Shown here in pieces: positions 3,407 to 9,301 of a DNA stretch of 16,309 bases. Source of the DNA: Oscillospiraceae bacterium (lineage in GTDB: Bacteria > Bacillota_A > Clostridia > Oscillospirales > Oscillospiraceae); the NCBI GenBank assembly GCA_031265965.1, contig JAISBX010000153.1, forward strand, positions 1 to 16,309, given 5' to 3'. The notes under the pieces are model-generated. The model saw nothing but the letters and a program-made list of their open reading frames with translations. It had not been told where the DNA came from and ran no database searches. Position numbers and translations under genes: made by a program. Each line of letters opens with the position of its first letter. Position 1 is the first letter of the stretch.

Positions 3407-3742
3407 ATGGCGGCAAAAGCACATTTGAAGTACGCGCGCATTTCGCCGAGAAAGTGCAAGATCGTCTGCGATCTCATAAGAGGCAAGAACACGGATATCG
3501 CCAGAGCCATACTGCAGGGGACTCCAAAGGCGGCGTCCGAGCTGATGATCAAGCTTCTCGACAGCGCCGTGGCAAACGCCGAGAACAACCACGACATGGA
3601 TCCCGACAACCTGTATGTCTCCGAGACATACGCCAATCCCGGCCCGATAATCAAGCGCATGATGCCGAGGGCGCACGGCAGGGGATACCGGATAAACAAG
3701 CGTACCTCGCACATAACGATCGCCGTGGCCGAAAGACAGTGA
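3407..3742 (+). CDS. rplV: 50S ribosomal protein L22
   Basis: L22 binds 23S rRNA domains and sends a beta-hairpin into the exit tunnel, where macrolide resistance mutations arise in other species. The 111 residues include [23 protein letters not shown] at the start, [15 protein letters not shown] in the middle, and the tunnel-loop motif [23 protein letters not shown]. This is full length. The ATG at 3407 follows a GGGGGG stretch after the rpsS stop. A second + strand frame covers the same bases but is only a shadow. Confidence 0.98.
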
Positions 3743-3755
3743 GGGAGGACAGCGT

Positions 3756-4850
3756 ATGGGACAGAAGGTAAATCCGCACGGCTTCAGAGTCGGCATAATC
3801 AAGGACTGGGACTCGCGCTGGTACGCGCGCCCTGACAAGGTGGGCGACCTCGTCGTCGAAGACTACAATATCCGCAAATATCTCAAGGGGCTGCTCTACT
3901 CCGCGGGCGTGCCCAAGATAGAGATAGAGCGCGACAACACGCGCGTGCGGATATTCATCCACTGCGCGCGCCCGGGCGTGATCATAGGCAAGGGCGGAGC
4001 GGAGATCGAGCGGCTGCGCGGCGTCATGGAGGCGCGGATCGGCAAGACCGTGGCGATCTCGATCGTGGAGGTCAGGAACGCCGACACGAACGCCCAGCTC
4101 GTCGCGGAGAACATCGCGCAGAAACTCGAAAAGCGCAGCGGGTTCCGCCGGACGATGAAAAACGCGATGAGCCGCGCCATGCGGCTCGGGGTACGCGGCA
4201 TAAAGGTCATGGTATCCGGACGTCTCGGCGGCGCGGAGATCGCGCGCAGCGAGATGTATCACGAGGGCACGATACCGCTTCAGACGCTGAGGGCGGATAT
4301 AGAGTACGGCTTCTCCGAGGCCGCTACGACATACGGCCGCATAGGCGTGAAGGTGTGGATATATAACGGCGAGATACTCAGCCAGACGCTCCGCACGACG
4401 CCGCGCACGATGGATACCTCGCGTCCGCCCAGAGACCGCAGGCAGGGCGGCGCGCGCTCCGGCGGCGGACGCGGTTACGACAACCGCGGCGGCGGCTACG
4501 GCAACAACCGCGGCGGACAGGGCGGAGGTTACGGCAACTACAACCGCGGCGGCCAAGGCCAAGGTCAAGGCGGACAGGGCGGCGGCTACAACCGCGGCGG
4601 CGGACAGGGCGGAAGCTACGGCGGTGGCCAAGGCGGGAGCTACGGCAACAACCGCGGCTGCCAAGGCGGCGGCTACGGAGGCTACAACCGCGGCGGCCAA
4701 GGCCAAGGCGGACAGGGCGGAGGTTACGGCGGCGGACAGTCAGGGGGCTATAACCGCGGCGGTCCGGGCGGCCGTCCGGGCGGCGCCGGGGGAACCGGCG
4801 GCGCCGGAGGGTCCGGAGGACAGCCGTCGGGAGAAGGAGGCGGTAACTGA
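3756..4850 (+). CDS. rpsC: 30S ribosomal protein S3 with a long RGG/Gly-rich C-terminal tail
   Basis: S3 forms part of the mRNA entry channel of the 30S subunit and helps its helicase activity. Residues 1-212 are a normal S3: [14 protein letters not shown] at the N-terminus, a KH type 2 domain with GKGG at 78-81, and the C-terminal domain with [12 protein letters not shown] and [14 protein letters not shown]. Usual bacterial S3 ends near residue 210-230, but this one has 364. From about 230 to 364 it is low complexity: 54% glycine, six RGG motifs (R244, R252, R264, R280, R312, R334) plus R300-Gly-Cys, 11 Tyr and many Gln and Asn. There is no Lys, Leu, Ile, Val, Met, Phe or Trp. The frame is continuous and ends at the rplP start (1-nt overlap), so the tail is probably real. 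Its function is unknown; RNA binding or condensation is inference from eukaryotic RGG domains. Confidence 0.97.
4444..4847 (+). repeat. Imperfect in-frame Gly/RGG-coding repeats at the 3' end of rpsC
   Basis: This stretch encodes the S3 tail as degenerate units of the type Y/N-N-R-G-G followed by G/Q/Y. At DNA level there are exact copies: a 27-bp segment at 4538-4564 recurs at 4682-4708 (offset 144 bp, in frame), and a 24-bp segment at 4512-4535 recurs at 4707-4730 (offset 195 bp, in frame). Such repeats probably grew by slippage or unequal recombination, so tail length may differ between strains. One unit carries TGC (4659-4661, Cys302) where its neighbours have GGC. Confidence 0.85.
4834..4840 (+). 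promoter_or_regulatory. Ribosome binding site of rplP inside the rpsC tail
   Basis: AAGGAGG lies 9 nt before the rplP ATG at 4850 and codes for part of the final Gly-Glu-Gly-Gly residues of the S3 tail. The rpsC stop TGA (4848-4850) overlaps the rplP ATG by one base, an arrangement that usually couples translation of the two genes. Confidence 0.85.
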
Positions 4851-5338
4851 TGCTTTTACCCAAGAGAGTCAAGCACAGAAAGGTACAGCGCGGCCGCATG
4901 AAGGGGCGCGCGACGCGCGGCACGGATGTGGTGTACGGGCAGTTCGGAATGCAGGCCACAGAGCCGGCGTGGATAACGTCAAACCAGATCGAATCCGCGC
5001 GTATCGCGATGACGAGATATACAAAGCGCGGCGGCAAGGTGTGGATCAAGATATTCCCGGATAAGCCGGTGACGAAGAAACCCGCCGAGACGCGCATGGG
5101 CTCCGGCAAGGGGTCGCCGGAATACTGGGTGGCCGTCGTGAAGCCCGGGCGCGTACTGTTCGAGATTGCGGGCGTCAGCGAGGAGGCGGCGCGCGAGGCC
5201 ATAAGGCTCGCAGGGCACAAGCTGCCGTGCAAGACGAAGTTCGTCGTGCGCGACACAGTGTCGGATTACGTGCCGGCGCCGGTGCCGGAGGCCGCGCGGG
5301 AGACTGAGACGGGTGGTGAACCAGATGAAGGCAAGTGA
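4850..5338 (+). CDS. rplP: 50S ribosomal protein L16 with acidic C-terminal extension
   Basis: L16 binds near the A-site tRNA on the 50S subunit and enters late in assembly. Residues 1-137 are typical: [81 protein letters not shown]. Family members are usually about 135-145 residues long, while this one has 162. The extra 20 or so residues (from about 140) are rich in Pro, Glu and Gly with a net negative charge. The end of the gene overlaps rpmC by 14 nt, so the extension may have arisen by loss of an earlier stop codon. The ATG at 4850 has AAGGAGG 9 nt upstream. Confidence 0.97.
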
Positions 5339-8764: not shown

Positions 8765-9301
8765 ATGGCATACGGCGGCAACAGAAGGGACAACAGGAGA
8801 GACGACAGAAGAGACGAGACCCCGCCTGAATTCTCGGAAAAGGTGGTTTCACTTAACCGCGTATCGAAGACGGTCAAGGGCGGGCGCATATTCAAGTTCG
8901 CGGCCCTGTGCGTCGTAGGGGACGGAAAGGGAAGGGTCGGCTTCGGGCTTGGCAAGGCCGGCGAGGTTTCGGAGGCCATCCGCAAGGGCATAGAGGACGC
9001 GAAGAAGAACGTCGTGACTGTTACGATCTCCGGTTCAACGATACCGCACGAGGTCACGGGCCGTTTCGGCGCCGGCAAGGTGCTGCTCAAGCCCGCGCCC
9101 GCGGGAACGGGAGTCATAGCGGGCGGCGCGGTGCGCGCCGTCGTCGAGGCGGCGGGCATATCGGATATCAGGACAAAGTGCCTGAGGTCAAACAATCCGC
9201 AGAACGTCGTGGCGGCGACGATGGTCGGGCTGCGCTCACTTCGCGACGCCGCGCAGGTCGCGAGGATCAGGGGCAAGTCCGCTGATGATATTCGCGCATA
9301 G
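8765..9301 (+). CDS. rpsE: 30S ribosomal protein S5 with Arg/Asp-repeat N-terminal tail
   Basis: S5 lies beside S3 and S4 at the mRNA entry channel and affects decoding accuracy. The core (from about residue 23) has [54 protein letters not shown], and [23 protein letters not shown]. The first 22 residues are not conserved S5: they contain YGG and then the charged repeat [13 protein letters not shown] (6-18). S5 N-termini vary, so this is not exceptional by itself, but it echoes the S3 tail, which would sit close by. The ATG at 8765 has GGGGAGGG (8747-8754) 10 nt upstream. Confidence 0.97.

Follow-up and report, generated by a model that had tools for sequence, protein, structure and literature searches.

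What does a bacterial ribosomal protein S3 do with 159 residues beyond position 205 of its chain, 45.9% of them glycine and with six RGG motifs among them? The question is raised by a stretch of 16,309 nucleotides from an Oscillospiraceae bacterium (contig JAISBX010000153.1), here called the window, which contains the S10-spc-alpha ribosomal operon; its open reading frames were named by eye, except for S3 and L16, which were identified by profile. The S3 gene (rpsC, uS3; 3756-4850, forward strand) encodes 364 amino acids and has the placement expected between rplV and rplP, following an open reading frame at 3407-3742 (L22, named by eye) and preceding L16 at 4850. Profile TIGR01009 matches residues 1-210 at 287.8 bits, against a curated cut-off of 114.5, bearing out the earlier note's description of a normal S3 core followed by a tail. 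R131, R132 and K135, which take part in mRNA unwinding, are invariant across a 26-row alignment that includes the window. The features of the locus are as follows:

3756..4370, forward strand: rpsC (uS3) core, residues 1-205, with the F-R-R-x-M-K segment (R131, R132, K135); matched by TIGR01009.
4371..4442, forward strand: linker, residues 206-229; LRTTPR occurs in 53 of 69 family tails.
4443..4832, forward strand: low-complexity Gly/Arg/Tyr/Asn/Gln arm, residues 230-359; marked by its composition, YNRGG count, even Tyr spacing and the long tails found family-wide.
4833..4847, forward strand: C-terminal EGGGN, whose codons GAA GGA GGC serve as the rplP ribosome-binding site; marked by the codon usage of the terminal EGG.
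4836..4840, forward strand: GGAGG, 9 nt 5' of the rplP ATG; same placement in relatives.
4850..5338, forward strand: rplP (L16), which shares one base with the S3 stop (TGATG); matched by TIGR01164 at 202.3 bits.

The last sense codon of S3 ends at 4847; a TGA stop follows at 4848-4850, and the ATG of L16 spans 4850-4852. L16 itself runs 36 residues past its profile match (residues 2-126), with an acidic, proline-containing end encoded at window 5228-5335. Residues 230-364 of S3 comprise 135 amino acids, with 73 Gly (54.1%), 14 Gln, 11 Tyr, 11 Asn and 10 Arg, a single Asp, Glu and Cys each, and no V, I, L, M, F or W; the net charge of the tail is +8. This recount agrees with the composition given earlier (54% Gly, six RGG, 11 Tyr, 10 Arg, two acidic residues, no large aliphatics). 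Of the coordinates 4440..4847 assigned to the tail, the end holds, but 4440 belongs to residue 229, and residue 230 begins at 4443.

An assembly or frame error appears very unlikely to account for the tail, judging from related sequences and the way the frame ends. The S3 protein P0001, encoded on another contig and perhaps from the same population as the window, is 94% identical over the full query. L001 (identical to L177), from a MAG titled Oscillospiraceae, has a core 95.6% identical and 133 residues after the core point, compared with 159 in the window. An S3 tail of the YNRGGQGG type is carried by P0061, a protein that bears the name of the strain Sporobacter termitidis DSM 10068. Because of these three tails and a frame that runs exactly into the rplP overlap, we set aside an artefact or frameshift, one of the two findings that the earlier note had named as fatal to its claim. 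A fresh tandem-repeat expansion was likewise rejected, since the arrays in the tail are short and degenerate, with 2-3.5 copies and a best score of 106 at 82% matches.

Long S3 tails characterise the entire sampled family, mostly gut bacteria, and not the window genome alone. Relatives were sampled within the window's own phylum, taking as family, order and phylum the groups in which the sequence collection places the L001 genome. For the family, 81 genomes were searched, 73 exceeded the cut-off, 70 were fetched (without G007, G072 and G084) and 69 were usable (L106 runs off its contig). The corresponding numbers for the order are 88, 82, 80 (without G189 and G246) and 79 (L167 runs off its contig). 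At the phylum level, 101 exceeded the cut-off and 43 were fetched, 30 as the best-scoring and 13 chosen for long frames; 41 were usable after leaving out L136, which has an in-frame stop, and L265, which has no anchor and stops shortly past the core. Protein relatives (P numbers) are the best 120 of 8000, six of which lack the first anchor, and 80 of 573 confirmed places were taken as additional loci. In all counts, "tail" means everything after a W-x-x-x-G anchor, so that the linker, some 24 residues long, is counted with it. All 69 of the 69 usable family S3 sequences have at least 40 residues after the core. The same holds for 42 of 79 sequences from the order and, in the phylum sample, which is enriched for long frames, for 5 of 41. 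Family tails are 49-138 residues long (median 79), against medians of 49 in the order and 16 in the enriched phylum sample; short order tails have about 15-25 residues, for example EVLPEVKRPSNEGGK. Three or more RGG occur in 7 of 69 family tails, 1 of 79 in the order and 0 of 41 in the phylum.

A quick method was used to build a tree from 201 rows of S3 cores, with 75 of 192 inner branches left open. One of its groups contains 103 rows, and every tail in it has at least 40 residues (SH-aLRT 87, not starred; 17 of the rows, 16 chosen loci and the window, were added by hand). Long versus short tails require 10 changes on this tree, three of them forced by starred branches. The form with at least 30% Gly is scattered across it, requiring 17 changes against a shuffled mean of 19.3 (17 of 500 shuffles as low; four changes forced by starred branches). 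The window and L177 are sisters (99). Counted from residue 206, the window has the highest Gly content and RGG number of 268 complete loci sequences. It is not the richest of all, a claim we had to drop: among the proteins listed, in which RGG ranges from 0 to 9, P0001 has 46.4% Gly and seven RGG, and P0009 has nine RGG. Nor is length the novelty that it had been taken for, as S3 reaches 384 residues among the matches listed, compared with 364 in the window. Elsewhere in the order, a separate branch (L156, L159, L160) has GGGRPGGFGG-type tails with 34-40% Gly, in which Phe largely takes the place of Tyr; they may be a Gly-rich version of separate origin. Another branch (L259, L260, L262) has tails of 130-189 residues that are mixed-charge, not Gly-rich, and end in GGNNDVNA.

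The extreme C-terminus answers to a second reading of the same DNA. Of 188 distinct sequences, 184 were usable for this comparison, and a rplP start was recognised in 158. E-G-G lies within the last 10 residues of 148 of the 184 tails. A GGAGG lies within 22 nt of the rplP start in 133 of the 158 and in none of the other 25; it falls wholly within the S3 frame in 131 of those 133, at a median spacing of 9. Within the last 25 nt of S3, GGAGG is in codon phase 0 in 139 of 150 cases. The terminal EGG is encoded GAAGGAGG in 64 of 69 cases from the family set and the window, and the four internal EGG never are. The one-base TGATG overlap is present in 118 of the 158 relatives. The E-G-G end of S3 is therefore conserved because its codons form the rplP ribosome-binding site, and growth of the C-terminus has respected this coding overlap in most relatives.

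Between the linker and this end, the elements of the tail differ in how far they exceed chance. The window tail has six RGG against a mean of 2.95 in composition-preserving shuffles, 103 of 3000 of which reach six, so the count is weakly non-random. YNRGG, found four times against 0.02 expected (0 of 3000 shuffles with as many), is clearly so, as is the evenness of the Tyr residues, whose spacing variance is 16.1 versus 96.4 at random (0.44% of 10,000 random placements as even). Successive RGG are separated by 5, 9, 13, 29 and 19 residues, outside the 0-4 that define di- and tri-RGG motifs. The significant unit in the window is thus aromatic-Asn-Arg-Gly-Gly and not RGG alone. Evenly spaced aromatic stickers of the FUS type are found in the window but are not general in the family, whose tails have a median of three aromatics (range 0-8, at most three in 45 of 69; 11 in the window). 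Strict RGG is absent from 25 of 69 family tails, and with a window count only mildly above the shuffles, we dropped it as the shared unit. The likeness to a eukaryotic RGG box drawn in the earlier note accordingly stands for a long Arg/Tyr/Gly-rich tail and fails for strict RGG as the shared unit, given its absence from those family tails and gaps of at least five residues in the window. The roles suggested there, namely mRNA capture, helicase recruitment, ribosome clustering and survival under stress, would be conjectural.

Across 68 family tails, GGYNR occurs 28 times against 0.25 expected from shuffles and RRD 47 times against 11.7; in family tails, GG[YF] is found 139 times versus 16 and [YF]N 111 times versus 21. 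The usual layout is a linker, often an Arg/Asp block, the low-complexity arm, and E-G-G with a few residues; the Arg/Asp block is small in the window (two Arg-acid neighbours versus a family median of six). What the family has in common is Arg in place of Lys, Gly/Asn/Gln and a near absence of aliphatics; GG[YF] and [YF]N are enriched, with few per tail. Tails that are Tyr-rich and almost free of acidic residues belong to the window's kin and to scattered others; they do not characterise the family.

The tail is kept by selection; it is constrained, though less than the core, and turns over fast. The 88 tails of at least 60 residues contain 22.5% Arg and 1.7% Lys, with V, I, L and M together at 0.8% versus 26% in the cores. 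Their third-position GC content tracks that of the core (GC3; rho 0.80), whereas the Gly, Arg, aromatic and Asn+Gln fractions do not follow core GC3 over its range of 0.31-0.94 (Spearman rho 0.005-0.113), so the DNA drifts with the genome and the protein composition stays. In 172 tails, N, Y, F, G and R lie above the prediction from tail base composition and V, I, L, M, T, A and H below it (N 0.098 versus 0.020 predicted, Y 0.027 versus 0.008, V+I+L+M 0.004 versus 0.082). On both grounds, we rejected DNA composition as the cause of the tail. Substitution rates were compared between pairs sharing no sequence. In 27 close pairs, cores had a pN/pS of 0.071 and tails, which were aligned in a way that favours low values, one of 0.226. 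In 17 equal-length pairs compared without an aligner, where hidden shifts favour high values, it was 0.102 for cores and 0.655 for tails; the true tail value lies between 0.226 and 0.655. The tails contain 35 internal Shine-Dalgarno-like sites (GGAGG/AGGAG), where synonymous shuffles give 69.8 +/- 6.6 and none of 300 is as low; the window alone has five against 8.7 +/- 2.4. Measured in tails alone, this deficit may be a genome-wide habit.

These measurements make it unlikely that the tail is a near-neutral growth, lengthened at the C-terminus by slippage and purged only of hydrophobic or otherwise harmful residues. Such growth would fit the fast turnover of length and order, the short degenerate repeats, the wide ranges of RGG (0 to 9 among the relatives listed) and of aromatics in the family, and a tail pN/pS of up to 0.655; the range of aromatics slightly raised our estimate for it. 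It fits poorly with the lack of any short tail in the group of 103 tree rows, a composition independent of GC3, specific GGYNR units, internal Shine-Dalgarno-like sites below shuffles, and a pN/pS below 1 in both tests.

The explanation that we tentatively prefer, with a confidence slightly short of even, is that the tail is a lineage-specific, probably disordered, Arg-rich (in the window also Tyr-rich) arm, predicted from its sequence to bind RNA near the mRNA entrance. In 30S structures, uS3 has its C-terminus on the head of the subunit, close to that entrance. The conserved linker (206-229) would carry the arm off the S3 core at this place. Spaced by Gly, Gln and Asn, its Arg residues would make weak multivalent contacts with single-stranded mRNA, or else with the rRNA of an adjacent ribosome; in the window and its kin they would be joined by Tyr, evenly spaced in GGYNRGG-type units. 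The arm could in this way concentrate mRNA around the entrance and aid its loading, or hold downstream mRNA open next to the S3/S4/S5 helicase site. The sequences show the anatomy of the tail, its retention across the family sample, its constrained composition and the scarcity of internal Shine-Dalgarno-like sites relative to synonymous shuffles; we infer the disorder, the location near the entrance (from 30S structures), the RNA binding and any effect on translation. AlphaFold2 gave a mean pLDDT of 42.6 with the core also at low confidence, and is therefore uninformative on disorder. Against the Tyr-sticker part stand the 45 of 69 family tails with at most three aromatics; it can hold for part of the family at most, and our confidence in the RNA-binding arm is lowered for this reason. 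The pN/pS of 0.655 in equal-length pairs also counts against the arm.

In make-up, the tail resembles RNA-binding low-complexity domains, with Arg among Gly/Asn/Gln spacers, almost no Lys and, in the window, Tyr. The low-complexity domains of FUS and hnRNPs likewise combine Gly spacers with Arg and Tyr and have few acidic or aliphatic residues. The S3 tail differs from these RG/RGG-box and Tyr-rich domains in its position on a ribosomal protein, in RGGs at least five residues apart, and in the lack of a sequence match. Residues 216-364 matched no PDB chain at 1e-5, and a search with residues 230-364 found P0001 as the sole match at 1e-5 among 7982 scored candidates; there is thus no homology to a known RNA-binding domain, which weighs against the arm. 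Methyltransferase PF05185, the one PRMT type covered, was found in 0 of 41 family genomes and, as a control, in 2 of 14. Another analogue is the disordered, Tyr/Gly-rich F/YGG region of hnRNPA2; in the S3 tail, Asn-Arg often follows Tyr. According to PMC9067507, the hnRNPA2 region binds RNA through its aromatics, which by analogy would speak for the arm, and does not bind rRNA, which would speak against it.

Extensions of uS3 as such have precedents in mycobacteria, Cutibacterium and Mycoplasma pneumoniae. A whole-protein search of the PDB at 1e-20 matched 49 sequences, the longest of 275 residues, excepting a 712-residue chain with the match at its far end. The extended chains with solved structures (269-275 residues) have extra residues after the same core and are shorter than the window S3. 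Titles and abstract openings in the open-access literature yielded no bacterial S3 tail of this kind, and the words "RGG" and "glycine" are absent from the main text of a review on ribosomal-protein and histone tails (PMC11764897). Disordered ribosomal-protein extensions are known; the S3 tail is probably one of them, with an unusual, conserved make-up.

Within the genomes, a search for similar arrays outside S3 returned nothing from 10 genomes, but also missed the S3 tails of the eight carriers among them and is therefore uninformative; a DNA pattern for the array gave 85 matches against 81 in the reversed control. YNRGG matches cluster in S3 (G007, G085), and G004 has one pair, in two hydrolase-like frames. 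Among 336 loci and the window, five frames outside S3 matched as R/G/aromatic-rich; by eye, two are L15-like and three are apparent out-of-frame readings. The N-terminus of S5 is rich in N, R and D, with 30 residues before the NRV motif in the window (8765-8854). Of 81 sources (L001-L080 and the window), 62 yielded an S5, with a median of 27 residues before NRV (18-112) and at least four RR/RD/DR in 20 of the 62.

Ribosomes are very abundant, and condensation might follow if arms, in analogy with FUS, stuck to each other and to RNA and clustered ribosomes or polysomes, for instance in stationary phase. The window tail, with its 11 evenly spaced Tyr, 10 Arg and charge of +8, would suit this role. 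Since most family tails have few aromatics (and a median of six Arg-acid neighbours, versus two in the window) and the Gly-rich form is scattered on the tree at close to the shuffled number of changes, condensation is unlikely as a shared ancestral role, and we consider it improbable overall.

A hibernation plug acting in cis seems more doubtful still. SERBP1 has RGG boxes. An S3 arm of 135 residues could by its length reach the mRNA channel of its own ribosome and might fold into it on starvation, as SERBP1 and Stm1 do in trans; these occupy the mRNA channel of dormant 80S ribosomes (PMC11274626) and are separate eukaryotic proteins, whereas the chain here is part of uS3. The 26-row alignment shows no conserved plug-like motif in the arm, and tail length varies from 49 to 138 residues in the family. 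Equally doubtful is a tether, in which the arm or linker would recruit a partner to the entrance, such as a helicase, RNA polymerase/NusG or an assembly factor. Nothing else past the core is as well conserved as the linker, and eukaryotic helicases contact uS3 (PMC11274626), but the arm lacks an alignable recruiting motif in the 26 rows. The tail as a stand-in for ribosomal protein S1 was rejected, because an S1-like match is present in all 88 of the 88 genomes from the order, whatever their tail, and the only weak best matches, in G214 (long S3 tail) and G264 (short), show no link to it. The full-length S1 cut-off was passed by 0 of the 88 (control, 2 of 14); most best S1 matches in the order extend to about profile position 345, in frames of about 640-900 residues (a few of about 400), as if fused.

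Ribosomal proteins are among the most conserved of proteins, yet every usable S3 sampled in this family has a long low-complexity C-terminus at what would be a functional opening of the ribosome. A bolder reading, which we regard as unlikely, is a FUS-like sticker-and-spacer arm built into the ribosome at the mRNA entrance. With no need of a separate RGG protein, such an arm would gather mRNA or neighbouring ribosomes, as translation condensates, or plug the ribosome's own channel when the cell is dormant. If RNA binding or ribosome clustering by the tail were true, these bacteria would show that a sticker domain like those of eukaryotes can occur naturally as part of a bacterial ribosome.
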